Shown one piece after another: positions 1 through 27,449 of a stretch of 35,608 nucleotides of DNA. The notes beneath the pieces were generated by a model that was given only the letters and a program-made list of their open reading frames with translations, did no database searches and was not told the DNA's origin. Every line of letters begins with the position of its first letter. Position 1 is the first letter of the stretch. Made by a program: the position numbers and the translations under genes. Origin of the DNA: a virus; IMG/VR virus record IMGVR_UViG_3300021425_002585, positions 1 to 35,608 of that record. One strand, written 5' to 3'.

Positions 1-281
1 ACACCTGGTTGATCAAATGTCAATGTTACATCTTTTGATAGTTTTGATTTCTTTGGCAATTTGTATCCATCTGGACCGTCAATCATTTCGACATTGTGTC
101 CTTTGTCTGTTGCCAACCAAGTTACACTTTCCCCTGGTTCAATGGTTACAATCTCTTGTGAGAACACCATTTTGCGTTTTTTGTCGTCTGGGTCTTTGTT
201 CCACATTTCAACTGTGGCTGATTCAGCAAAGGCACTTGTAGCCATTGCCATTAATAGTCCTAGTGTAGTTAAAATCCGCAT
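1..281 (-). CDS. Pseudoazurin-like blue copper protein (3' end beyond window)
   Basis: The N-terminal 93 residues are visible; the C-terminus runs off the left edge. An 18-20 residue signal peptide (MRILTTLGLLMAMATSAFA) is followed by a cupredoxin start: VEMWNKD, a short basic stretch, MVFSQEIVTIEPGESVTW, then DKGHNVE with the first copper-ligand histidine. This order matches pseudoazurins, soluble periplasmic electron carriers that donate electrons to copper enzymes and oxidases. The remaining Cys, His and Met ligands should lie in the missing part. The start at 281 has a strong GGAGG lying inside the last codons of the upstream gene, so it is the last visible gene of the small-protein operon that begins near 1847. 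A plastocyanin or amicyanin assignment is less likely because of the DKGHNVE motif. Confidence 0.85.
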   Translation of the reverse strand, partial: MRILTTLGLLMAMATSAFAESATVEMWNKDPDDKKRKMVFSQEIVTIEPGESVTWLATDKGHNVEMIDGPDGYKLPKKSKLSKDVTLTFDQPG

Positions 282-284
282 CTT

Positions 285-467
285 TTATCCTCCTACGTAG
301 ATTGCGTCTTTCGGACGATACCAATTTTTTTGATTGTGCAGTCGTCCTAAAAGTTCTTGTACTTGTCGCTTGCCTTTTTGGTCTGCTTTTATTTGTGCAT
401 TAAAAAGAGCCAACTCGATTAATTCTAAATCTTCTACTGATAACTCAAACTTCTTGTTCGGTTTCAT
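285..467 (-). CDS. Small hypothetical protein, 60 aa
   Basis: Soluble, mostly helical and charged, with a segment SVEDLELIELALFNAQIKAD followed by a basic region and a WYRPK motif. It resembles in style the short helical ORFs common in T4-like marine phages, but no function is recognised. Its ATG overlaps the end of the upstream 78-aa gene by 23 bp, and its last codons carry the ribosome binding site of the pseudoazurin gene. A partly similar ELxxxDLxxLE pattern appears in the protein at 5979-6197. Confidence 0.65.
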   Translation of the reverse strand: MKPNKKFELSVEDLELIELALFNAQIKADQKGKRQVQELLGRLHNQKNWYRPKDAIYVGG

Positions 468-681
468 TCAACATCTCCCTCGTTATTTTGTTTGCGGGCA
501 TACAAGCCACATTTAATATAGTATCGTTAAATCCTGCCACATCAATCACTTCTATTGCAAGTCTATCGCTGTTAGCAGGATCATTGATATAGGCTTTGCA
601 TTCGTTTTGTGTTTCAAACGGCAGAGTCTTTAGTGCAAAAGGTTCTGCTTCCAACATAACGAATACAATAAGCCACTTCAT
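445..681 (-). CDS. Hypothetical protein with hydrophobic N-terminus, 78 aa
   Basis: A short hydrophobic start (MKWLIVFVMLEAEPFAL) precedes a polar domain with two cysteines (NECKAY and NVACMPAN). It may be exported or anchored at its N-terminus, which would put it in the same compartment as the pseudoazurin encoded two genes downstream. No family was recognised. It starts at an ATGA overlap with the 36-aa membrane protein, so translation is probably coupled. Confidence 0.65.
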   Translation of the reverse strand: MKWLIVFVMLEAEPFALKTLPFETQNECKAYINDPANSDRLAIEVIDVAGFNDTILNVACMPANKITREMLNETEQEV

Positions 682-788
682 AATCTTACACCACTATTGC
701 CTTTTTTAGGTTTAGGTTCCATTGCCCAAGCAAATAGTATCATACCTAAAAACCATCCGTAAGTTATTATAAAATATAACCAAGTCAA
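678..788 (-). CDS. 36-aa single-span membrane protein (TTG start, inferred)
   Basis: The frame opens at a TTG that overlaps the DoxX stop as TTGA and closes at TGA overlapping the next ATG (ATGA). The product has one aromatic-rich transmembrane segment (WLYFIITYGWFLGMILFAWAM) and a basic tail EPKPKKGN. The order YF, W, LG, A-M-E is loosely like CydX-type oxidase subunits, but no CydAB is present and the resemblance could be chance. The start is inferred from the overlap and from filling the gap between genes; an internal ATG 15 codons later is the alternative. Confidence 0.5.
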   Translation of the reverse strand: MTWLYFIITYGWFLGMILFAWAMEPKPKKGNSGVRL

Positions 789-1195
789 GTACGATTACCT
801 CGCAGAGCAAAGTACATTCCACCTACCCAAAGTAGTACATGAAAGTTGTCATATAGGATCACATCCATAAAGCTATCAGGTTGGCCTACCCAAATCACAC
901 CTGTCATAATACCTGTTATGACAATGCCACTAAAGCGTGTGATCAAGTCACCAAACTCTTTTAGGCGTTTGACATAATCCATCAAGCCACCTACGATCAA
1001 CCCAAAGCCTGCGCCAATTTCACCTAGCACCACAAAAGTCCAAACCAACAGTGTCAGTTCAAATGCTGCTGCGGTTTCTGCATCAATAGGCCATTTGGCA
1101 AAGCCTTGCTGTAGGAATACCACAATCAGTGGTATGCGTATGAGCCAATGTGTCATACAAAATTCAGGTATTTTTCTTACAAATTCTTTAATCAT
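785..1195 (-). CDS. DoxX-like membrane protein, 136 aa
   Basis: Four predicted membrane segments fit the DoxX family: RIPLIVVFLQQGFAKW; LLVWTFVVLGEIGAGFGLIV with the family's glutamate-glycine pattern; SGIVITGIMTGVIWVG; and FHVLLWVGGMYFALRG. DoxX proteins are usually 120-160 aa and are linked to quinone-dependent redox complexes and oxidative stress; specific roles vary. The start overlaps the stop of the 28-aa peptide as ATGA, and the stop overlaps the TTG of the next small gene. It is the only recognisable family member between the operon promoter and the pseudoazurin. Confidence 0.75.
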   Translation of the reverse strand: MIKEFVRKIPEFCMTHWLIRIPLIVVFLQQGFAKWPIDAETAAAFELTLLVWTFVVLGEIGAGFGLIVGGLMDYVKRLKEFGDLITRFSGIVITGIMTGVIWVGQPDSFMDVILYDNFHVLLWVGGMYFALRGNRT

Positions 1196-1278
1196 TTATT
1201 CATCTCCGATACTGCAATATACACAGCACCTATGATAATAAATGCCAGTATCATTCCAGCAGTCCATGCTTCTGTCAT
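1192..1278 (-). CDS. 28-aa single-span membrane peptide
   Basis: An ATG-started frame encodes a short acidic start (MTEAW), a single hydrophobic span (TAGMILAFIIIGAVYIAV) and a polar end SEMNK. Its start overlaps the stop of an 18-codon ORF (TAATG) and its stop overlaps the DoxX start (ATGA). The size and composition fit a small accessory subunit of a membrane complex. The continuous chain of stop-start overlaps on both sides is the main support that it is translated. Confidence 0.55.
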   Translation of the reverse strand: MTEAWTAGMILAFIIIGAVYIAVSEMNK

Positions 1279-1334
1279 TAACTTCCCCATCCTGCAAACT
1301 CGTCTTGTTCTGTTTGCTTTTGTTCTTTATCCAT
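1278..1334 (-). CDS. 18-codon polar ORF (possible micropeptide or coupling ORF)
   Basis: A hydrophilic, acidic peptide ending DEFAGWGS, starting 8 bp inside the end of the 53-aa gene and ending at a TAATG overlap with the 28-aa gene. It contains no membrane span. It could be a true micropeptide or only a translational relay that carries ribosomes to the next start. Support is positional only. Confidence 0.3.
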   Translation of the reverse strand: MDKEQKQTEQDEFAGWGS

Positions 1335-1488
1335 TTGTTTCGCTCCAAGGAAAGCAAGGCAGTAGGATACTTTGCTTGCAATACTTTTGATCAGCAAGCA
1401 AGACAGGAACGCCCACCATAAAGAATGTAATAATCAAAAAAGCCCAACCGAGGCCTTTTAATGTGCAATAGTTTGTTTGTTCGCTCAT
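1327..1488 (-). CDS. 53-aa membrane protein
   Basis: One hydrophobic span (GLGWAFLIITFFMVGVPVLLA) follows a polar N-terminus with a cysteine (NYCTLK); the C-terminal tail has two further cysteines (KYCKQS and LPCFPW). Three cysteines in 53 residues is notable in an operon with a copper protein. It starts at an ATGA overlap with the upstream 120-aa gene. No family was recognised. Confidence 0.65.
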   Translation of the reverse strand: MSEQTNYCTLKGLGWAFLIITFFMVGVPVLLADQKYCKQSILLPCFPWSETNG

Positions 1489-1847
1489 ACGTGTTCTCCA
1501 TCGGCTGCTCGGCCGTTGTATTTCTTACCTGACTTGATAAGTTTGTTGATTGATTCTGGATTGTTTTCTGCTTGACGGAATGTCACTGCTGTAAGTGTTA
1601 CACCAGTGATAAGAGCCATATGTGCAATAGCACTGATGCCAAACACTACATAACTGCCTACCATTACGGCAAACAATCCGCTCCATATAAAGAATAAGCA
1701 CTGGAATACCATATGTGCTACCATTGGGTCTAAGTTGCGTAGTGGTGATTTTTCAATGGTCATTACACTGTCCCACATTTCACGTGGCATAGAAAACAGT
1801 GTTGAAATAGTTGTTGCCCAACCAATGGGTTTTGGTTTAGTGTTCAT
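1485..1847 (-). CDS. Membrane protein of unknown family, 120 aa
   Basis: First gene of the operon. I chose the ATG at 1847, which has AAAGGA ahead of it; an upstream in-frame start at 1910 would run back through the promoter. The protein has a cytoplasmic-type N-terminal arm, then two closely spaced hydrophobic spans (AHMVFQCLFFIWSGLFAVMV and YVVFGISAIAHMALITGV), each carrying an AHM histidine, and a basic C-terminal tail. Paired membrane histidines could bind heme or metal, but that is inference. No family was recognised. Confidence 0.7.
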   Translation of the reverse strand: MNTKPKPIGWATTISTLFSMPREMWDSVMTIEKSPLRNLDPMVAHMVFQCLFFIWSGLFAVMVGSYVVFGISAIAHMALITGVTLTAVTFRQAENNPESINKLIKSGKKYNGRAADGEHV

Positions 1848-1877
1848 AACAAAATCCTTTTGTCTCTGTGTGTAGTA

Positions 1878-1906
1878 TATATAGCATGGAAAAAATAGAA
1901 AGTCAA
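1878..1906 (-). promoter_or_regulatory. Sigma70-type promoter of the small-protein/pseudoazurin operon
   Basis: TTGACT at 1906-1901, a 17-bp spacer and TATATA at 1883-1878 lie 31 bp upstream of the ATG at 1847. This is a near-consensus host RNA polymerase promoter, suggesting early or constitutive expression of the whole 1847-to-1 operon. Confidence 0.7.
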
Positions 1907-1934
1907 GCATACACGGGTGTGTAAAATTGTAGCA

Positions 1935-2843
1935 TTAGATTTTGTTGTTATCTGCTATAAAATTATTGTAGTTACTAATTCTAAAAGTTATCCTGTGGAG
2001 AACTCTTTTTGCAAGAATATCTGGATCATTTTGATCACGTTTGTGTAATGTTAACAATTGATCCATTAAAACAATATCTCCGGGCTCGTACCAATGCTGA
2101 TAGATATATTTTTCTTGAAACACATGATCATACAATCGTTGAAATAAAGTGTGGTCTTCTGTAATAATTTTACACTTATTATTTGTGTAAAAGTAGATAC
2201 CTTTCACACCTGCTATGTTTTGTTGAAGCAACCACATCTTATAAGGACCTTCTTGTCCGTCTTTTTTCATCATTTTGTATTGTGTTTCGGGCAAACCCTT
2301 TGCCCATACTTCTGGTGTATATTCATATTCACAATGCACACCTTCTAATTGTTTTTTAAAGTCTTCTTCTAAATCATTGTAAGCAAGACTGGTGTTTAAA
2401 TAACTTGTGCTTGTATTTTCGCATCCTTCATAGCCCTGTAAAGCTACACCATCTGCTCTATCTAATCCATTTAAGTTGGCGTGCCAATCCAAAATACCAC
2501 TAGAAAAAATTCCTGTGGTAATTCCTTTTTTATTCTTCTTAGCAGTGGTTCGTTGTATAGGATAAAGTTCCTTTTCTTTTTTCCATTGATTTGTATTAGG
2601 AGGAGTCTTATCCATATAAAACTCTCCTTCTTTGGTGTAAATAAATTGTCTATAGTTTGCTACAGTTCCTATCTTTTCTACAAAATTTACAAAATGATAA
2701 GGTAGTCTATTTTGATTTTTAAGAACTACAATTAAATCTTTTTGCAAAGTTTGTTTTATAAGATCTGCGTCATTTTGACTCAAGTCTACAATGTCTACAT
2801 TGTCTACTCGTGTTGCAACACCATTTAAACTTTTAAATTCCAT
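1935..2843 (-). CDS. TauD/TfdA-like 2-oxoglutarate dioxygenase, 302 aa
   Basis: TauD-type layout: N-terminal strand region with DLIVVLKNQNRLPYHFVNFVEKIG, a metal-site motif LDWHANLNG around residue 120, and a C-terminal block GDIVLMDQLLTLHKRD...RVLHRITF that supplies the distal histidine and 2OG-binding arginine. Family members hydroxylate small substrates with Fe(II) and O2; the substrate is unknown. The usual HxD is HxN here, which may alter iron binding or be a subfamily trait. The ATG at 2843 lies two bases after the stop of the upstream dioxygenase; a GTG at 2870 inside that gene is less likely. Confidence 0.75.
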   Translation of the reverse strand: MEFKSLNGVATRVDNVDIVDLSQNDADLIKQTLQKDLIVVLKNQNRLPYHFVNFVEKIGTVANYRQFIYTKEGEFYMDKTPPNTNQWKKEKELYPIQRTTAKKNKKGITTGIFSSGILDWHANLNGLDRADGVALQGYEGCENTSTSYLNTSLAYNDLEEDFKKQLEGVHCEYEYTPEVWAKGLPETQYKMMKKDGQEGPYKMWLLQQNIAGVKGIYFYTNNKCKIITEDHTLFQRLYDHVFQEKYIYQHWYEPGDIVLMDQLLTLHKRDQNDPDILAKRVLHRITFRISNYNNFIADNNKI

Positions 2844-2845
2844 TT

Positions 2846-3709
2846 TTAATAACTCTGTGCTAAACGCCACATCAAATATTCTTTTGATTCAATAGGCGGA
2901 TACTTTGCTGCTTCACCTTTGCGCAAGTTGAATACTTGTGTGCCTGGTGTAGGATCAACAAAGTGTGGCATACTATAACGCTGTTGATGAATATGGCTAT
3001 TAACAACTCTGTGTTTGGTACTAACAAAGTAATCGTTTGTCCAACGCTGTAACAAGTCACCAATATTAACCACTATGCCATCTTCTGCATATGGTACTGG
3101 ATGCCAAGCACCCGTTAAGTCTTGCACTTCGAGTCCTGGTACATCGTTGATTTGCCATAGCAAAGTAATAGTGCCATAGTCTGAATGTTCACCAATACGC
3201 ATCTGTTTGTTTTCAACAGGTCCGTCATAAGCAGGATAGTGAATAACTCTTGTGGTATTGAATGGTTCTGAATGTGCATCTACCAGTGTAGTGCCTGTGT
3301 CAAGTATTTCGTCAAACTTGCCCAAGATACGCAGTGTAAGTCTATCTGCAATATCTATGCTTTGTAATGCACTCTCTTTGAAACCCGAAAGTTCTGTTGG
3401 CCACAAATGATCAGGCATACGCATATTGTTGTAGTTAAATGATTCTTTTATATCTTTGGGTGCCGTAGGATCTACGTTTTCGTCTCCGACCATGCTGTAT
3501 CCTAAATTGGTATCACCTTCATAAGGATACTGCTTTTTTACACTATCTGGCAAATCAAAGAATGCTTTCATTTGCTGTTGCCAGTTCTTCATATTGGTAT
3601 TGTCTTCAGCATCCAACGCATTTGTAAAGACGGCGAAGCCCACGGTAGTGTAGGCTTCGTCAATACGATCCAAAGCGTCTGCTGCTTTTAAATCGATAAT
3701 AGGTATCAT
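2846..3709 (-). CDS. Isopenicillin-N-synthase-like 2OG-Fe(II) oxygenase, 287 aa
   Basis: The start IPIIDLK and the DAYTTVGFAVFTN-like region match the non-haem dioxygenase N-terminal domain. The catalytic domain has GEHSDYGTITLL (HxD iron ligands), NIGDLLQRWTND, STKHRVVN (distal histidine) and RYSMPHF (the RxS pair for 2OG). Length is close to bacterial members of the family. The biological substrate cannot be read from sequence. It starts at a TGATG overlap with the upstream BMP-type protein gene, so these two are translationally coupled, and it is followed at once by the TauD-like gene. Confidence 0.85.
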   Translation of the reverse strand: MIPIIDLKAADALDRIDEAYTTVGFAVFTNALDAEDNTNMKNWQQQMKAFFDLPDSVKKQYPYEGDTNLGYSMVGDENVDPTAPKDIKESFNYNNMRMPDHLWPTELSGFKESALQSIDIADRLTLRILGKFDEILDTGTTLVDAHSEPFNTTRVIHYPAYDGPVENKQMRIGEHSDYGTITLLWQINDVPGLEVQDLTGAWHPVPYAEDGIVVNIGDLLQRWTNDYFVSTKHRVVNSHIHQQRYSMPHFVDPTPGTQVFNLRKGEAAKYPPIESKEYLMWRLAQSY

Positions 3710-4800
3710 CAGTTAGGTACCTCTGCGTTAATACCTTCAACATAATACATCATAGTGTCAAGATGCGCACGATCAGCAACTTCACCTGCTGCCAACACTT
3801 GATTGCCTTTGTTGTCGTTTAGTGGACCTGTGAAAGCAAAGTATTCACCTGCTGTAATAGCTGCTTTTACTTCTGCTGCTTTTGCTGCCACATCTGCTGG
3901 CATATTTGTAAATGGTGCCATCTCAACTGACCCGTCATTCATATGTCCAAAGTAGCATCCGTCTGGACCATCACACATTGGTGTCCAAGTACCGTCTAGT
4001 ACCTGTCCTACTTTTTCAATATAGTATGGACCCCAGTTGTCAATGGTTGCTGTAAGTTGTGCTTTTGGCGCAAAATTGATTTGATCTGATGCCTGGCCAA
4101 AACCAATCTTGCCTTGGACTTCTGCTGCCTGTAATGGAGCAGGCGAGTCTGTGTGTTGTGCAATCACATCACAGCCCTGGTCCATTAGAGCAACAGCCGC
4201 ATCTTGTTCTTTTGCTGGATCATACCAAGTGAACACCCAAACAATATCAATATCTACATCTGGGTTCACACTTTTGGCACCCAAGTAATATGTGTTGATT
4301 TCACGGATCACTTCTGGAATTGGATACGCTGCCACATAACAGATTTTATTTGTTTTGGTCATCATACCTGCAATAACACCTTGTACGTGTCTTGCTTGAT
4401 ATAGTCGCAGTCCATAGTTTGAACTATTCACGCCATTTGTTTTGTAGCCTGTTGCGTGTTCAAACTTTACGTTTGGAAACTTCTTAGCAACTCTTTCTAC
4501 TGCATCCATATAACCAAATGATGTTGCAAAAATAATGTCATGTCCTTGCAGTGCCATTTGTGTTAGCACACGTTCAGCATCTGCACCTTCAGGTACTGAT
4601 TCAATATAAGTTGTTTCAACTCTATCTCCGTATGCTTCTTCTACTTGTTGACGACCAATGTCGTGCCTATATGTCCATCCATGATCGCCAATTGGGCCAA
4701 CATAAATGAAGCCAACTTTAACTTTGTCAGCAGCCTGTGCTGCCACGCCGAAAGACCCCATCAACAAGAGTGATGCGGCTAATAGTCTAAATAATTTCAT
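3709..4800 (-). CDS. BMP-family ABC transporter substrate-binding protein, 363 aa
   Basis: A signal peptide ending AAQAA is followed by KVKVGFIYVGPIGDHGWTYRHDIGRQQVEEAYGD, the hallmark start of Bmp/PnrA-like binding proteins, with the ATSFGYMDAVERVAKKFPNVKFEHATG segment also typical. Family members bind nucleosides or related purine compounds in the periplasm. No permease or ATPase genes are nearby, so the protein would have to feed host transporter components. SD AAAGGA precedes the ATG. The gene lies directly downstream of the tmRNA and may share its transcript. Confidence 0.85.
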   Translation of the reverse strand: MKLFRLLAASLLLMGSFGVAAQAADKVKVGFIYVGPIGDHGWTYRHDIGRQQVEEAYGDRVETTYIESVPEGADAERVLTQMALQGHDIIFATSFGYMDAVERVAKKFPNVKFEHATGYKTNGVNSSNYGLRLYQARHVQGVIAGMMTKTNKICYVAAYPIPEVIREINTYYLGAKSVNPDVDIDIVWVFTWYDPAKEQDAAVALMDQGCDVIAQHTDSPAPLQAAEVQGKIGFGQASDQINFAPKAQLTATIDNWGPYYIEKVGQVLDGTWTPMCDGPDGCYFGHMNDGSVEMAPFTNMPADVAAKAAEVKAAITAGEYFAFTGPLNDNKGNQVLAAGEVADRAHLDTMMYYVEGINAEVPN

Positions 4801-4827: not shown

Positions 4828-5114
4828 GGGCCCGTTCTGTTGCTAGGTGGAACCCATACCCCGCATACCTAAATCAGGCTGCGATTGCCATTGCTGGCGC
4901 TGCGTTTGTGTTTGCAGTTATAAAGTTTAACCTATTACGCTGTTACCCGGTTAACTCCACTTCACTTTCACACCTGTCGATCCTATTTCTCGCCCATAAA
5001 AAACACACTATTGACCTTTCAGTGATAGAGAGTGATTTCTCCTAGTGTGCTTATGGTGGACGAGTGCGGTACCGCCCCGCAGTCCAGTATGTGTCCACGT
5101 TGCTTCAACGCTAA
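4828..5114 (-). ncRNA. ssrA: Circularly permuted (two-piece) tmRNA
   Basis: Read on the minus strand, the acceptor piece comes first: a T-stem TGCGG/CCGCA (5081-5065), acceptor strand CTCGTCC (5064-5058), A, then CCA (5056-5054). An intervening segment with arms CACACTA and TAGTGTG follows. The coding piece starts with GGGCGAG (4995-4989), which pairs with CTCGTCC (one G-U), followed by AATAGGATCGACAGG, a tmRNA signature. CAG+GTGTG of the coding piece pairs with CACAT-A-CTG of the acceptor piece as helix 2. The tag frame at 4915-4874 reads ANTNAAPAMAIAA then TGA. The permuted form is typical of alphaproteobacteria. The T-loop (GGCGGTA) departs from the usual TTCRANY. The 5' and 3' ends are estimates. 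Confidence 0.9.
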
Positions 5115-5119
5115 CACAC

Positions 5120-5127
5120 TATTTATA
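5120..5127 (-). promoter_or_regulatory. T4-late-type promoter (TATAAATA) upstream of tmRNA
   Basis: An exact TATAAATA lies about 6 bp before the predicted 5' end of the tmRNA acceptor piece and 11 bp after the stop of the MBL gene. If functional, the tmRNA and possibly the BMP gene are expressed late in infection. Confidence 0.65.
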
Positions 5128-5137
5128 ACACATTTGA

Positions 5138-5965
5138 TTAAAGTTTGTCAACCGGTATTTTTATAACTTCTGGTACTTCACCTGCTCGCATATTAACTTG
5201 TATGCTGGGCAGTATCAGTTGTGGCATACTCAGTTTAGCATCACGGGCTTCACGCATTTCAACATACTCCGATTTGCTTTTACCAGCAATCTGTATGTTC
5301 TTTGCTTTCTGTTCGCCTACAGTTGTTTCCCAAGCATAATCACGCCCGCCTGGAGCGTAATCGTGTGCCACAAAGATACGTGTTTCATCTGGTAGAGCAA
5401 GTATCTTTTGAATGCTGTCATACAAGTCTGCGGCACTGCCTCCTGGAAAGTCACATCGTGCTGTACCAAAGTCTGGCATAAACATTGTGTCACCTACAAA
5501 GGCAGCATCTTCTATTAGATAGGTTAAACAGGCAGGTGTATGTCCTGGAGTGTGCATTACTCGAGCACGTAGTTCGCCAATCATAAACTCATCACCTTCA
5601 CGGAACAGTCTATCAAATTGACTACCGTCACGCTCAAACTCTGTGCCTTCGTTGAATATCTTACCAAAGGTTTCTTGCACTGTCATTATGTGTGCGCCAA
5701 TAGCAATATCACCACCTAGTTTTTCTTGTAGGTAAGGTGCTGCACTCAAATGGTCTGCGTGAACGTGTGTTTCTAATATCCATTCAACTGTCAAGTTGTG
5801 CATTTGGATATATTGGATAATATTGTCTGCATTGGCAGTGTTGGTTCTGCCACTTGCAAAATCGAAGTCTAGTACGCTGTCTATGATAGCGCATTGTTTG
5901 CTGTCGTCAATTACAACATAACTAACCGTTTTGGTTGCGGTGTCAAAAAAGTCTTGTATTTGCAT
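5138..5965 (-). CDS. Metallo-beta-lactamase-fold hydrolase, persulfide dioxygenase/Blh-like, 275 aa
   Basis: Metal-binding motifs are clear: ETHVHADH (HxHxDH), MHTPGHT, FVGDTMFMPDFGTARCDFPGGSAADLYDSI and FVAHDY. The DFGTARCDFPGG block is typical of the ETHE1/Blh-like persulfide dioxygenase branch rather than glyoxalase II, suggesting oxidation of glutathione persulfide or a related sulfane sulfur compound. I chose the ATG at 5965 because it begins the conserved fold (QIQDFFDTATKTVSYVV); the longer start at 6031 runs into the upstream gene. A late-promoter element AATAAATA lies 5 nt upstream, with no Shine-Dalgarno sequence, so the mRNA may be leaderless. Confidence 0.8.
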   Translation of the reverse strand: MQIQDFFDTATKTVSYVVIDDSKQCAIIDSVLDFDFASGRTNTANADNIIQYIQMHNLTVEWILETHVHADHLSAAPYLQEKLGGDIAIGAHIMTVQETFGKIFNEGTEFERDGSQFDRLFREGDEFMIGELRARVMHTPGHTPACLTYLIEDAAFVGDTMFMPDFGTARCDFPGGSAADLYDSIQKILALPDETRIFVAHDYAPGGRDYAWETTVGEQKAKNIQIAGKSKSEYVEMREARDAKLSMPQLILPSIQVNMRAGEVPEVIKIPVDKL

Positions 5966-5970
5966 ACAAG

Positions 5971-5978
5971 TATTTATT
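5971..5978 (-). promoter_or_regulatory. Late-promoter element abutting the MBL start codon
   Basis: AATAAATA followed by CTTGT and then ATG. In T4 the last A of the element sits near -6, so transcription would begin at or next to the A of the start codon. Confidence 0.5.
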
Positions 5979-6197
5979 TTACCACTTTTCTGCTGTGCGT
6001 TTTTTGATATCTTTTTGAGCACGTATAGCATTCATTAAACGAATGATTCTGCTTTTCTTTTCACCTGGGCGATCATAATTGTTCTTTTGTGACCAAGTTT
6101 TATCTTGTTCTAACTCTTTGGCAAACTGATCGCCTAGTAGTTTTTCTAAATACGACAAGTCGTCGTTACTAAGTTCTTGTATCTTCCGTGAAACCAT
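5979..6197 (-). CDS. Small hypothetical phage protein, 72 aa
   Basis: A charged helical protein (ELSNDDLSYLEKLLGDQFAKELEQ followed by a basic C-terminal half with SRIIRLMNAIRAQKDIKKRT). The start MVSRK at 6197 overlaps the end of the upstream gene by 29 bp; a longer start at 6266 lies entirely inside that gene and is unlikely. Function unknown. Confidence 0.6.
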   Translation of the reverse strand: MVSRKIQELSNDDLSYLEKLLGDQFAKELEQDKTWSQKNNYDRPGEKKSRIIRLMNAIRAQKDIKKRTAEKW

Positions 6198-6387
6198 TCT
6201 GTCTGTCTCTCCATGCTTGTTCGAACTGTTCTTCATAGTCGTACAAAGGTGCGCCGTTACTTCCATCTATCCATAGTCGACGAAAGTATCCGTTGTAACT
6301 ATCTATTACTGTTTGAGGTGATGCGTCGAGGTGGCCTTTAACCATAAAAAATATTCTGTATTCTTCTTTAAGGTCGTTTCTCAACAT
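6169..6387 (-). CDS. Small hypothetical protein, 72 aa
   Basis: A compact soluble protein with a possible ferredoxin-like pattern: YRIFFMVKGHLDASPQTVIDSYNGYFRRLWIDG then an acidic aromatic tail ending FEQAWRDRQNGFTEDTRT. Function unknown. The ATG at 6387 has no Shine-Dalgarno sequence but TGTAAATA lies 4 nt upstream, so it belongs to the putative leaderless set. Confidence 0.65.
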   Translation of the reverse strand: MLRNDLKEEYRIFFMVKGHLDASPQTVIDSYNGYFRRLWIDGSNGAPLYDYEEQFEQAWRDRQNGFTEDTRT

Positions 6388-6391
6388 ACTG

Positions 6392-6399
6392 TATTTACA
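6392..6399 (-). promoter_or_regulatory. Late-promoter element abutting the start codon at 6387
   Basis: TGTAAATA, then CAGT, then ATG. It is a one-base variant of the T4 late consensus TATAAATA at the same spacing as five other genes here. Confidence 0.45.
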
Positions 6400-6431
6400 A
6401 AGATTAAAAATGTAGGCGCTAACATAGGTTA

Positions 6432-7184
6432 TTAATTAGACTTTATAAGTTCAATAACAGTGGCACTAGGGTCAACGGGTCCAAACCTGTATCTATACGG
6501 AGTTTTATGATGATTTCCGTGATATAGTAAGTCAAACCAGCACAGTAAATATTTTGCATTATCCCAATTTTTTGACTCACCGTACCAATGTCCCCAAGTA
6601 TTAACTATTGAAGAATGAGTCAACACCAGTATACAATGAAAACAATATAATGAAAATAAAATTGACGAAATTAAGAACAAACCAATCAACACACAAACAT
6701 TTATAAAAATATAGTAATCAGTGGTAAATTTCATTAACTTTGAACGTTTGTACCATATACCGTAACTTAATTCTTGTATTTTTTTATCTTTCGGTGTAGG
6801 CCAAGCAAACCAACCTGTAAAAAATGCGCCTATTCTTCCATAAATTTTTGGAGAATGAGGATCCCCTTCTTTGTCACTAAATTTATGATGAGTATTGTGT
6901 GCAGTAACCCAAACAGGTATAGGACCTGCACCAGATAATGTTGATAAAAAGAATAATGTATAATGCCAAAATTTATTAGTTTTAAAAGATTGATGAGTAA
7001 AATATCTATGATATCCAACACTTACGGAAAATGTGGCTAGTAAATATGCAAATACTATTAATAAAATACAGACTAAAAGTGGAAATATGTAAAAAGAATA
7101 TAATATACCCAATATTGCAGGAATATGTATTATCCACAAATGTATATAATTTTTTTCTACGGTTTGAACATTAGTGTTTTTCAT
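6432..7184 (-). CDS. Fatty acid desaturase (delta-9 type), 250 aa
   Basis: Three histidine boxes identify a membrane diiron desaturase: HRYFTH (HxxxxH), HNTHHKF (HxxHH) and HGNHHKTPYRYRFG (HxxHH). Hydrophobic spans flank the boxes (IPAILGILYSFYIFPLLVCILLIVFAYLL near the N-terminus and two spans near residues 160-195). The length is typical of short bacterial acyl-CoA or acyl-lipid delta-9 desaturases. The likely role is raising membrane unsaturation during infection; the substrate form (acyl-lipid or acyl-CoA) is not decidable. CATAAATA lies 4 nt before the ATG and overlaps the stop codon of the upstream 81-aa gene. Confidence 0.88.
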   Translation of the reverse strand: MKNTNVQTVEKNYIHLWIIHIPAILGILYSFYIFPLLVCILLIVFAYLLATFSVSVGYHRYFTHQSFKTNKFWHYTLFFLSTLSGAGPIPVWVTAHNTHHKFSDKEGDPHSPKIYGRIGAFFTGWFAWPTPKDKKIQELSYGIWYKRSKLMKFTTDYYIFINVCVLIGLFLISSILFSLYCFHCILVLTHSSIVNTWGHWYGESKNWDNAKYLLCWFDLLYHGNHHKTPYRYRFGPVDPSATVIELIKSN

Positions 7185-7188
7185 TTTA

Positions 7189-7196
7189 TATTTATG
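7189..7196 (-). promoter_or_regulatory. Late-promoter element abutting the desaturase start
   Basis: CATAAATA, then TAAA, then ATG. The TAA within the element is also the stop codon of the upstream gene. Confidence 0.45.
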
Positions 7197-7437
7197 TGAA
7201 TTGTTTTTCCAGTAAATTATATTGTTTAATTTCAGTGATCATTTCTCCAGCTAGATAAAAATTCATTTCTTTAAGTAGATCAATATCATTGCAATATACA
7301 CCAGCAGTTATAAAGTTGCTTTTGGCAATAAAATCTATAATTTGGTTTTTGTTATCCTGTGTAGGAAAAGATACTAAACATCTGGCAGTATCTTCACACA
7401 CTAAAATTTTAGTATTATCAAATTTATATTCTATCAT
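7192..7437 (-). CDS. Hypothetical protein, 81 aa
   Basis: A small soluble protein with alternating strand-like and helix-like segments (KFDNTKILVCEDTARCLVSFPT, NQIIDFIAKSNFITAGVYCNDIDLLKEMNFYLAGEMITE). No family was recognised. It starts at an ATGA overlap with the Hc1-like gene. Confidence 0.6.
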   Translation of the reverse strand: MIEYKFDNTKILVCEDTARCLVSFPTQDNKNQIIDFIAKSNFITAGVYCNDIDLLKEMNFYLAGEMITEIKQYNLLEKQFT

Positions 7438-7613
7438 AAGTCATTTTTCATTTGTTGTATTTCTTGCCTGCGATCAGGTATGAGTTTTTTCAAATCATTA
7501 AGTGCTTGTCTTGCACGAACTGCACTAACCTTTACACCATTATCCTCAAAGTTTTCTATTTCTTTGATGTAAGTTGCAAATGCTAACTTAATTTGTTCAT
7601 GAGTATCACTCAT
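7434..7613 (-). CDS. Histone H1-like (Hc1-type) small phage protein, 59 aa
   Basis: The C-terminal part SAVRARQALNDLKKLIPDRRQEIQ matches the RARKAL-x-L-x-K-x-x-x-x-RRKEI pattern of Hc1-like proteins seen in T4-like marine phages and some bacteria. Its helical N-terminus is HEQIKLAFATYIKEIENFED. DNA binding is inferred only from the family resemblance. Both ends overlap neighbours: the ATG lies inside the last codons of the deoxynucleotidase gene, and the stop overlaps the next ATG. Confidence 0.6.
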   Translation of the reverse strand: MSDTHEQIKLAFATYIKEIENFEDNGVKVSAVRARQALNDLKKLIPDRRQEIQQMKNDL

Positions 7614-8178
7614 TTAAAATTATCTCGCAAATTTGTTGCCAACTGTGTACCCTTGTCACATCTTTATGTTCAAACCACGTATTCCAAGGATGAGAAACTA
7701 AAATAGGTTTAAGTCCATATTTTAAACCTGCGACAGCATTTTCTACTTTGTCTTCAAGCCAAAACATTCCAGTATCTTTGTACTGCTCCAGTATATTATC
7801 CTTTGGAGCGTCATTTCCTACGTAATGCATCTTATCAAATGTAGTTTTACTAAACAAATATCTTAAATGTCTATTCCTTGTTTCTTGAATGTATTCATTG
7901 GTGCCAACTGCTGTACAAATATCAATAGTATATCCATTTGAAACTAGTTTTTCTACACCATCTTTACTATCATTCCAGTAATCCAAATGTGATAACCAAA
8001 CACTTTCATTGAAATCTTTGACCAAACCATTTGCTTGTTCTCTATTAATGTCATACCTTTTATGAATAACATAACTTTCAGGATTACTCACAACAAATCC
8101 TTCGTCTTCCATCCAACTGTTGAATTTTTTGTTCCAATCTAATAAAACACCATCAACATCTGTAATAATTTTTTTCAT
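7606..8178 (-). CDS. HAD-family 5'(3')-deoxyribonucleotidase-like protein, 190 aa
   Basis: The first HAD motif is ITDVDGVLLDW (DxDGV nucleophile); motif II is likely DICTAVGTNE, and the C-terminal aspartates lie in HYVGNDAPKDNILEQY and FWLEDKVENAV. The length and the DVDGVLLDW start fit the NT5C-like branch, which dephosphorylates deoxynucleoside monophosphates; in a phage this would tune nucleotide pools or salvage phosphate. Substrate assignment is inference. No Shine-Dalgarno sequence precedes the ATG, but TATAAAG lies just upstream. Confidence 0.65.
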   Translation of the reverse strand: MKKIITDVDGVLLDWNKKFNSWMEDEGFVVSNPESYVIHKRYDINREQANGLVKDFNESVWLSHLDYWNDSKDGVEKLVSNGYTIDICTAVGTNEYIQETRNRHLRYLFSKTTFDKMHYVGNDAPKDNILEQYKDTGMFWLEDKVENAVAGLKYGLKPILVSHPWNTWFEHKDVTRVHSWQQICEIILNE

Positions 8179-8193
8179 ACTTTATACTCTATA

Positions 8194-8751
8194 TTAGATA
8201 TCAATCAGGTCTTTGTATTTTTCAAAGAACTCTTGATATGCGATTTTCATAGTCATTTGAACATTGTATCTACTCTGTCCAAATTGATACACTGCGTGTT
8301 TAACTTGTGGATTCCAAACGTAAACTGTAGGAACGTTATTCATAGGAATACCATATTGTTCATCTTGATAAAAAATTTCTAAAGGTGTGTAATCGTCACC
8401 TTTGGGTAATAAAGGAATATACACAGAACATTTTCTAACAGGGTCATTGTGCGGATAAACATGATTTTTTCCGCTTTGACTCATTATAAACCAATTAGAA
8501 ACATCATCTTTAAAAATTTCTAATTTTTTCTTTAGGTTATCAAACGGCTTACAATCAGGCCACTTGTACATTTGCAGTGCTCCTCTAATCTTTGGATTTT
8601 CAAGTGTTTTTGTTATTTCACAACACTGATTCCATAAATCGTTGTCTATATCAATTGTTAATTTACATATAGCATTTTCTTTTAAAGATAAAGGCCACTG
8701 ATCAGTATCGGTTATTAAATATTTTCTTCTATCCTGATCAATGAATTCCAT
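8194..8751 (-). CDS. Probable 2OG-Fe(II) oxygenase / aspartyl-hydroxylase-like protein, 185 aa
   Basis: A double-stranded beta-helix pattern is visible: HVYPHNDPVRKCSVYIPLLP gives a candidate HxD iron pair, and VKHAVYQFGQSRYNVQMTM gives a distal histidine and an arginine. This resembles the Asp/Asn beta-hydroxylase-like proteins common in marine T4-like phages; see also 26282-26803. The target is unknown. The promoter is a perfect consensus located so close to the ATG that the mRNA is probably leaderless. Confidence 0.5.
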   Translation of the reverse strand: MEFIDQDRRKYLITDTDQWPLSLKENAICKLTIDIDNDLWNQCCEITKTLENPKIRGALQMYKWPDCKPFDNLKKKLEIFKDDVSNWFIMSQSGKNHVYPHNDPVRKCSVYIPLLPKGDDYTPLEIFYQDEQYGIPMNNVPTVYVWNPQVKHAVYQFGQSRYNVQMTMKIAYQEFFEKYKDLIDI

Positions 8752-8757
8752 AGTACG

Positions 8758-8786
8758 ATTATAATAGACTTTTATACAGTTGTCAA
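8758..8786 (-). promoter_or_regulatory. Perfect sigma70 consensus promoter with start at the ATG
   Basis: TTGACA at 8786-8781, a 17-bp spacer, and TATAAT at 8763-8758; the ATG at 8751 begins 6 nt after the -10 box. Transcription should therefore initiate at or within a base of the start codon. Confidence 0.75.
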
Positions 8787-8815
8787 TGTTTTTATGTGTT
8801 TACTTTTTACGTCAA

Positions 8816-9826
8816 TTAGTATGTTCCATAAATTGTACCGTTATTTATAACAGTAATTGAATTGGTTGCTGTAATAGCAGCACCACCGGCGCCACCAGTA
8901 CCACCACCGCCGTTTCCTCCAGCTGCGCCCCAGCCGCCGCCAGATCCTGCTGCTGTAGTAGAACTACGAGAATCTGATCCGCCGGTAGCGCCTGGATTTC
9001 CTGCAGAACCGCCTGCAGCGCCAGAAATATTATTACTTGAGCCAGAATTAGCATTGCTTAAGAAACCACCAGTACCTCCAGTGCCTGGCAAAATACGTCC
9101 GCCGGCGCCCCCGCCACCACTAAAGCTCGTGCCTTCATCCCAGAATGTTACTCCAGAACCACCACCTGCACCACCGCCGTGACCGCCTTCTGTACCTCTA
9201 ACGCCGTTAGGACCATCTGTTCCTACATTTCCGACTGATCCACCAGCATTACCAGAAGGTCCTCCAGATCCGCCACCTGCACCACCACCGCCACCTGCTC
9301 TCCATGGATAGGCCGCACTAGAGCTTGCTCCACCACCACCGCCACCTGCGATGAAGGCACCGGATAAATTATTAATAGTAACAGAATCAGACGTAGTTAT
9401 GATAATAGCATCGCCGCCGTAGAGTCCATTACCGGCACCACCGCCGGCACCACCTTTACCTATAATATAGCCTTCATTATTAATAATAACACCGTTTGGG
9501 AAAGATCCAGCAATAGTCAATCCTGCGCCATTAACATCATTAGACCAAACATAAACTCCAGAAGATATATTTAAGGTTACGGCAGAAGTTCCATCCCAGC
9601 CTTGCGCAGTAGCATAAGTTGCAAGATCCATCTCTTGAGTGTTTGTAGAAACAGTGAAGCCAGCAGATGCGCCGTAAAACTGATTAAAGCTAGATGCAGC
9701 GCCAGAAGCTTTATCTATCAGTCCTCTAATATCTTCATCATTAAGAGTACACTGAGTTCCACTGGTGCCTCCAGCTTCTATGTGCAGGTCATTGAGAGAA
9801 ATTTCACCTGATGCTTGTAGAGCCAT
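8816..9826 (-). CDS. Glycine-rich tail adhesin / receptor-binding protein, 336 aa
   Basis: The N-terminus (ASGEISLNDLHIEAGGTSGTQCTLNDEDIRGLI, then SFNQFYGAS) is a virion-attachment type domain seen in T4-like marine phage tail proteins. Residues about 120-325 are a Gly-rich region with repeated GGGGGAGGGSGG-type runs interrupted by short strands, as in polyglycine-sandwich adhesins of T4-like phages (gp38 type). It probably recognises the host surface. It overlaps the upstream fibre gene by 1 bp, as expected for a fibre and its tip adhesin. The antisense proline-rich frame is a shadow of the glycine codons. Confidence 0.75.
   Translation of the reverse strand: MALQASGEISLNDLHIEAGGTSGTQCTLNDEDIRGLIDKASGAASSFNQFYGASAGFTVSTNTQEMDLATYATAQGWDGTSAVTLNISSGVYVWSNDVNGAGLTIAGSFPNGVIINNEGYIIGKGGAGGGAGNGLYGGDAIIITTSDSVTINNLSGAFIAGGGGGGASSSAAYPWRAGGGGGAGGGSGGPSGNAGGSVGNVGTDGPNGVRGTEGGHGGGAGGGSGVTFWDEGTSFSGGGGAGGRILPGTGGTGGFLSNANSGSSNNISGAAGGSAGNPGATGGSDSRSSTTAAGSGGGWGAAGGNGGGGTGGAGGAAITATNSITVINNGTIYGTY
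8842..8849 (-). promoter_or_regulatory. Candidate late promoter inside the 3' end of the adhesin gene
   Basis: An exact TATAAATA about 90 bp upstream of the oxygenase start at 8751. It lies within coding sequence (the Ile-Asn region near the C-terminus), so it may be coincidence. Confidence 0.3.
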
Positions 9827-26897: not shown

Positions 26898-27449
26898 TCA
26901 GTCTATGTTTATAATAACATCTTTTTCCAAAAAGTCAATACATTTTTCTGGAGTTGTTTCACCATACGGATCATTGTCATCTCCATCATTGTTGATGCCA
27001 GGTTCCTGCCACCACTTCTCTACTACACCATTATTAAGAACACACATATAGCGCCACGAACGCAAGCCAAAGCCCAAATGGTTCTTACCAATCAACATAC
27101 CCATGAAGCGGGTAAAGTTACCTGATCCATCCGGAATAACTTTTACGTGTTTAATATCTTGCTGTTTAGCCCAAGCGTTCATTACAAATGCATCATTTAC
27201 ACTGATACAATAAACTTCATCGATATCAGCATTACAAATGCGGTCATAGTTTTCTTCAAAGCCTGGCAACTGGTATGTGCTACAAGTAGGAGTAAATGCT
27301 CCTGGCAAACTGAATAGCACTACACGTTTGTTTTTGAATAATTCATCACTGGTTGTTTGTTGCCAACGATATGGGTTAGGCCCATCAATACTCTCGTCTC
27401 TTACACGAGTTTGAAAAACCGTACAAGGTGGTTTAAATCCTTCAATCAT
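26898..27449 (-). CDS. Peroxiredoxin (Prx5/AhpE-like), 183 aa
   Basis: The peroxidatic motif PGAFTPTCSTYQLPGFEENYD with the resolving pattern absent nearby, and GKNHLGFGLRSWRYMCVLNNGVVEKWWQEPG, match the Prx5-type family. It would reduce peroxides with glutaredoxin or glutathione. Terminal cysteines are few, so it may be a 1-Cys form. It stands behind its own sigma70 promoter and long inverted repeat. Confidence 0.85.
   Translation of the reverse strand: MIEGFKPPCTVFQTRVRDESIDGPNPYRWQQTTSDELFKNKRVVLFSLPGAFTPTCSTYQLPGFEENYDRICNADIDEVYCISVNDAFVMNAWAKQQDIKHVKVIPDGSGNFTRFMGMLIGKNHLGFGLRSWRYMCVLNNGVVEKWWQEPGINNDGDDNDPYGETTPEKCIDFLEKDVIINID

Follow-up and report, generated by a model that had tools for sequence, protein, structure and literature searches.

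Cyanophages are well known to carry photosynthetic electron carriers, and the locus described here would bear on the question of whether phages of heterotrophs also manage the respiration of their hosts. The window, by which we mean the whole 35.6-kb stretch analyzed (35,608 nt, IMG/VR virus record IMGVR_UViG_3300021425_002585), opens with nine minus-strand open reading frames (ORFs; positions 1-1906) that include a pseudoazurin, a DoxX-family membrane protein and several smaller proteins. We favor the reading, to which we give about an even chance of being correct, that these genes make up an auxiliary metabolic cassette carried by marine T4-like phages that infect Alphaproteobacteria, which would supply a phage-borne periplasmic electron carrier in support of host respiration or thiosulfate oxidation. 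All nine same-direction ORFs named in the original prediction, an earlier reading of the DNA letters alone, were found with the junctions it described.

The proposal centers on the pseudoazurin, and by sequence comparison the phage cassette protein is a true pseudoazurin with all copper ligands in related phages. The window copy breaks off at the contig end after 93 codons, with the first His present and the Cys, second His and Met ligands outside the window; because of this truncation its copper site is known by inference from relatives. Complete relatives, 85-89% identical to the window copy, retain C-T/S-P-H-x-S/T-M-G-M, and the type-1 copper ligand motif GHN...C-x-P-H...M (His/Cys/His/Met) is present in 80 of the 80 best viral relatives. 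The incomplete ORF itself scores 25.2 bits with Pfam Copper-bind (cut-off 21.2), and a profile of the phage family ranks PDB pseudoazurins (1e-33, 3tu6) ahead of amicyanin and the plastocyanins (4e-12). The full pseudoazurin matches NCBIfam TIGR02375 with an E-value of 1e-28 and 99.4 bits, below the equivalog cut-off of 109.85. The only PHROGs match is the PetE plastocyanin (PHROG 515, 6e-8), but the PDB ranking led us to reject identity with a PetE-type phage plastocyanin. On inspection, a secretion signal is indicated by a hydrophobic N terminus with the end AFA-E. Family and signal peptide are thus borne out as originally predicted, although the ORF on which that prediction was built runs off the contig.

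Pseudoazurin had also been called unusual in a phage. This holds for isolates, with no match in 50,697 isolate phage records, and for the open-licence literature searched, which yielded no report of phage pseudoazurin or cupredoxin auxiliary genes or of viral DoxX (pseudoazurin-bacteriophage matches being judged by title). In contrast, such proteins are common in environmental phages: close relatives lie in 9 contig stretches of a first IMG/VR scan, and a profile built on the phage family detects pseudoazurin-like proteins encoded in at least 408 viral stretches, with the copper motif checked in the best 80.

The core of the cassette is the conserved genetic pair of pseudoazurin and DoxX. Within 3 kb on either side of DoxX, pseudoazurin adjoins it in 27 of 30 non-redundant DoxX-anchored loci, always on the same strand, and 61 of 70 adjacent pairs are start/stop-coupled, with a gap of at most 10 bp or an overlap. 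The DoxX protein scores just above the Pfam DoxX (PF07681) cut-off (24.3 versus 23.6 bits), and its AlphaFold model, with a mean predicted local distance difference test score of 83 and more confident than the other four models, predicts four transmembrane segments (long helices 17-33, 49-72, 76-103 and 117-132). Relatives are encoded in 99 IMG/VR contig stretches. PF07681 is the sole Pfam hit at E-values up to 1, DoxD (PF04173) is not matched, and no DoxA-family match was found with Pfam among the other cassette proteins; membership of the thiosulfate:quinone oxidoreductase (DoxDA) was rejected on these grounds.

Conservation extends to several of the smaller genes, here named by length in residues (Table 1). 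In a fetched set of 161 loci, which includes the window's own copy and was partly chosen by the counted genes, relatives were found of pseudoazurin (119), p120 (117), DoxX (103), p53 (97) and p60 (91); p120 relatives likewise occur in 117 IMG/VR contig stretches. Judged by pairwise ratios of nonsynonymous to synonymous substitution rates (dN/dS) against relatives, the larger cassette genes are under strong purifying selection, with values of about 0.05-0.2 for pseudoazurin, DoxX and p120, and 0.09-0.15 for p53; the ratio is 0.16-0.32 for p60 and mostly 0.06-0.15 for p78 (24 fetched loci; one distant pair at 0.46). Conservation and dN/dS exclude chance ORFs for the main genes. That explanation was kept as likely for p28, which has no relatives in any of the fetched loci except the window's own copy and may be a spurious ORF. 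The rare p36 has only 5 complete relatives (dN/dS 0.15-0.37), and the 18-codon ORF is one of a family of micro-ORFs that recur with the ending ...EFAGWGS, with 17 aligned residues identical at four loci (L002, L085, L086 and L087).

The genes are closely packed. Read from p120 toward pseudoazurin, the junctions are ATGA (p120/p53), an 8-nt overlap (p53/18-codon ORF), TAATG (18-codon ORF/p28), ATGA (p28/DoxX), TTGA (DoxX/p36), ATGA (p36/p78), a 23-nt overlap (p78/p60) that is retained in 23 of 23 pairs, and a 3-nt gap (p60/pseudoazurin). Alignments of p120 reveal invariant W25, H45, Q49, W55 and H76 and a C-terminal GEH, and all three Cys of p53, one N-terminal and two after the span, are conserved. 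No reliable family was found for p120, p53, p60 or p78 in PHROGs, Pfam or NCBIfam, and a fold search with the p120 AlphaFold model gave no structural match. The idea that several tiny single-span subunits surround DoxX is borne out only in part, and a fixed complex of this kind is not supported: the p53 span and the two-span p120 are widely conserved, but p28 is unique to this contig, p36 is rare, and p60 and p78 are not single-span proteins. The cassettes of other phages add further small proteins, among them a lipoprotein-like one-span protein and a 69-residue one-span protein. A SufE gene (iron-sulfur/sulfur transfer) lies within the cassette of some phages (L086, 4822-5220, Pfam 5e-28), and in many phages the cassette is followed by a conserved secreted porin-like protein of 260-285 residues (L091 6183-6983, L155 10513-11373, L128 4049-4855), for which Pfam, NCBIfam and PHROGs gave no match.

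Upstream of p120, the sequence TTGACT-N17-TATATA, predicted as a near-consensus promoter at about 1900, is by pattern alone no better than one expected chance hit. It is credible because relatives carry a like promoter at the same place in 33 of their 45 distinct upstream regions, not because of its pattern. About 10-11 nt further upstream lies a 17-bp element (TGCTACAATTTTACACA; TGCTACAHTTTWRCRCA) with a single occurrence per phage contig, ahead of the cassette. Exactly one copy at no more than one mismatch was found in 10 of 14 large contigs, and a reversed control pattern gave none; at 26 of 27 distinct sites the element stands at a nearly constant distance from the promoter. The element may have a dedicated regulator.

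The conserved synteny that was to be expected of a phage operon was found, the cassette genes recurring in many IMG/VR phage contigs, including marine T4-like phage contigs of up to 201 kb. Because gene order is shuffled, with pseudoazurin on either side of DoxX, and the genomic location differs between phages, the cassette behaves like a mobile one. Of eight large cassette contigs, the longest 201 kb, three encode the gp23 major capsid protein; its distance from the cassette is about 0.7-0.8 kb in G001 and G004 and about 14 kb in G002, and for both gp23 and NrdA the best isolate matches are T4-like phages. The window itself has no gp23; its T4-like and marine-phage genes encode a PAAR protein, virion structural proteins, an exonuclease, a phosphate-binding-like periplasmic protein and an NrdA that shares about 70% identity with cyanophage enzymes. 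The concern raised with the original prediction, that the contig might join a bacterial chromosome here, is answered by these T4-like neighbors and the gp23-bearing relatives, which exclude a bacterial chromosome fragment.

Table 1. Features of the pseudoazurin-DoxX cassette in the window.
Feature	Position	Strand	Basis
Pseudoazurin, N-terminal 93 codons (signal peptide, first His in KGHNV)	3..281	-	Pfam Copper-bind; relatives; PDB profile search
p60, 60-residue soluble cassette protein, motif KPNxxFxLxVxDIxxIExAL...QKNWYRP	285..467	-	Relatives, dN/dS
p78, 78-residue protein	445..681	-	Relatives, dN/dS, conserved overlap with p60
p36, 36-residue single-span ORF, TTG start within TTGA overlap with DoxX	678..788	-	Few relatives, dN/dS
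DoxX-family four-helix membrane protein, 136 residues	785..1195	-	Pfam DoxX, viral relatives, alignment
p28, 28-residue single-span ORF	1192..1278	-	ORF only
18-codon micro-ORF, end DEFAGWGS	1278..1334	-	Micro-ORF family
p53, 53-residue single-span protein, three conserved Cys	1327..1488	-	Relatives, dN/dS
p120, 120-residue two-helix membrane protein	1485..1847	-	Viral relatives, alignments, alphaproteobacterial homologues
Promoter TTGACT-N17-TATATA, upstream of p120	about 1878..1906	-	Conservation among relatives
17-bp cassette-specific upstream element TGCTACAATTTTACACA	1918..1934	-	0 mismatches in window; directly after tauD stop codon

The origin of the cassette was approached through its cellular homologues. 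In a tree of the phage proteins with 78 bacterial sequences, the phage pseudoazurins fall in one part together with those of Paracoccaceae and SAR116, and the label changes along this tree suggest more than one exchange. A chromosomal Planktomarina pseudoazurin (L166, 4950-5405) is about 74% identical to that of the 201-kb phage contig, suggesting transfer between phage and bacterium. The nearest cellular DoxX proteins, up to 71-72% identical, are chromosomal in SAR116-order genomes, and solitary p120 homologues occur in 29 of 385 alphaproteobacterial genomes. These homologues identify marine Alphaproteobacteria as the cassette donors, and the hosts probably belong there too. The pseudoazurin-DoxX arrangement was not seen in the nearest cellular genomes: none of the 80 nearest cellular pseudoazurins has DoxX beside it, save on one phage contig (L180), which led us to reject a cassette copied whole from a bacterial operon. 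Among about 30 host p120 regions, only L226 (about 1.3 kb apart) and L282 (4.4 kb) have pseudoazurin near p120. In L226, a Rhodospirillaceae genome, pseudoazurin, the p120 homologue and a peroxiredoxin like that at window 26898-27449 lie within 3.5 kb (4989-8399), and p120 and DoxX homologues are neighbors in the SAR116-order genomes L346 (5935-7326, 0.6 kb apart) and L304 (3953-12435, about 8 kb apart). A 335-kb contig in a 'Neomarinimicrobiota' metagenome-assembled genome (L185), probably a giant phage contig, encodes pseudoazurin and two p120 paralogues (4953-5402, 7977-8327, 8724-9083).

How might such a cassette serve the phage? It would be expressed from its own sigma70-type promoter with the dedicated upstream element. 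The pseudoazurin, a type-1 copper electron carrier, would then reside in the periplasm of the host, and DoxX in the inner membrane together with the small membrane proteins p120, p53 or both. There are three candidate sources from which the pseudoazurin would receive electrons in the periplasm: the quinol/cytochrome bc1 side, a membrane donor linked to DoxX, and the Sox thiosulfate system of the host. It would hand them to a terminal oxidase and in this way, as we propose, keep up proton-motive force and ATP during the shut-off of host gene expression. The membrane partner of the pseudoazurin would be DoxX, with p120 and p53 as accessory subunits or assembly factors. The direction of electron flow, the partners and the benefit to the phage are what we infer here; that the cassette acts on the respiratory electron flow of the host is plausible. 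Cupredoxins are able to serve aerobic oxidases, and in Hyphomicrobium the transcripts of two pseudoazurin genes rise in mutants without thiosulfate-oxidation repressors (PMC12423496). Host DoxX adjoins a type-2 NADH dehydrogenase (NDH-2) in four genomes, and genes for related SAR116 pseudoazurins are flanked by soxD and soxB, both of them links to host respiration. A bolder version, which strikes us as doubtful, is that pseudoazurin and DoxX form a two-part, phage-assembled quinol (or thiosulfate):cupredoxin module, in which membrane DoxX would deliver electrons to the periplasmic copper protein and re-route heterotroph respiration.

Several observations weigh against the electron-carrier proposal. 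The phage pseudoazurin falls short of the equivalog cut-off, and the window copy is truncated, its copper site seen only through relatives. DoxX has no evident redox cofactor site or motif, its fold search returned unspecific helical bundles only and is uninformative, and NDH-2 stands beside host DoxX in only four of about 22 contexts. In phages, the neighborhood of the cassette showed no oxidase, bc1 or Sox enzyme, and a search of 20 large contigs for SoxY was negative, although its control likewise gave no match.

A narrower, sulfur-specific explanation would have the cassette boost host thiosulfate or sulfite oxidation, with pseudoazurin taking up electrons from the Sox enzymes of the host and DoxX behaving as the membrane component does in a thiosulfate:quinone oxidoreductase. 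Two SAR116 genomes (L211 and L231) speak for it, in that a related pseudoazurin sits between soxD and soxB (with SoxY and SoxZ identified by Pfam) and, with those of Paracoccaceae, groups nearest the phage proteins; the window also carries tauD, and sox and dsr auxiliary genes are known from phages (PMC8190135). Yet other near pseudoazurins have no sox neighbors, no sox homologue lies within the fetched flanks at 1e-5, DoxX matches neither the DoxD nor the DoxA family, and the SoxY search, with its uninformative control, was negative, so we regard this explanation as rather unlikely. The cassette might instead serve copper or envelope maturation, with DoxX, p120 and p53 loading, folding or stabilizing pseudoazurin or other periplasmic redox proteins, or guarding against oxidative or copper stress, rather than carrying electrons. 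The lack of a redox motif in DoxX, the two conserved Cys after the p53 span and a peroxiredoxin encoded in the window fit this idea. Pseudoazurins are, however, to our knowledge an electron-transfer family wherever they have been characterized, and DoxX is not generally needed for their maturation, because host pseudoazurins stand without it; we consider maturation distinctly unlikely. The lineage-specific turnover of the small membrane ORFs resembles that of accessory regions, and p120 is also found without DoxX, as would suit superinfection-exclusion or lysis-timing proteins with pseudoazurin and DoxX as unrelated passengers of the same operon. Against such a role, which we hold very unlikely, stand the tight pseudoazurin-DoxX coupling, the recurrent co-occurrence in different gene orders and the solitary chromosomal homologues of p120 in Alphaproteobacteria, unlike typical exclusion or lysis proteins.

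Other window genes lie close to the cassette. Just upstream, a minus-strand run of overlapping genes (1935-4800) encodes a TauD dioxygenase, a second 2-oxoglutarate-Fe(II) oxygenase and a substrate-binding protein of the Bmp type, and their homologues recur beside the cassette in other phages. Further along the same strand, the ORF at 5138-6031 encodes a metallo-beta-lactamase fold (Lactamase_B confirmed; persulfide dioxygenase likeness only by eye), and a 95-residue ORF of no known family at 5979-6266 has relatives, up to 98% identical, in 48 loci.

If the electron-carrier proposal is correct, the cassette would be the counterpart, in phages of heterotrophic marine bacteria, of the photosynthetic electron carriers of cyanophages, and the compact pseudoazurin-DoxX pair and its cis-element are offered as testable objects. 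In T4-like cyanophages, petE and PTOX lie in what may be a mobile cassette, and these phages are thought to manage electron flow (PMC3037559). The likeness lies in a phage-borne type-1 copper electron carrier (PHROG 515 in the cyanophages), a possibly mobile cassette in marine phages of the T4-like kind and a presumed redirection of host electron flow; the cyanophage PetE, however, is a plastocyanin of cyanobacterial photosynthesis that goes with PTOX, whereas here a pseudoazurin with an export signal is paired with DoxX in phages of apparently heterotrophic hosts. With bacterial pseudoazurins (TIGR02375; PDB 3tu6, 1bqk) the phage protein shares the fold family, the ligands H...C-x2-H-x4-M, a signal peptide and a mature domain of about 120 residues, but the phage clade scores just under the equivalog cut-off and is genetically coupled to DoxX. 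The phage DoxX is, like the PF07681 family, a four-helix membrane protein, comes close to SAR116-order chromosomal members, and differs in its translational coupling to pseudoazurin. The sulfur-related auxiliary genes known from phages (soxYZ, soxC, soxD, dsrA and dsrC; PMC8190135) are likewise thought to feed electrons into host respiration, whereas the present cassette pairs a carrier with a membrane protein and no Sox enzyme was found. The principle is thus known from cyanophages; new are the carrier, the DoxX that partners it and the apparent type of host.

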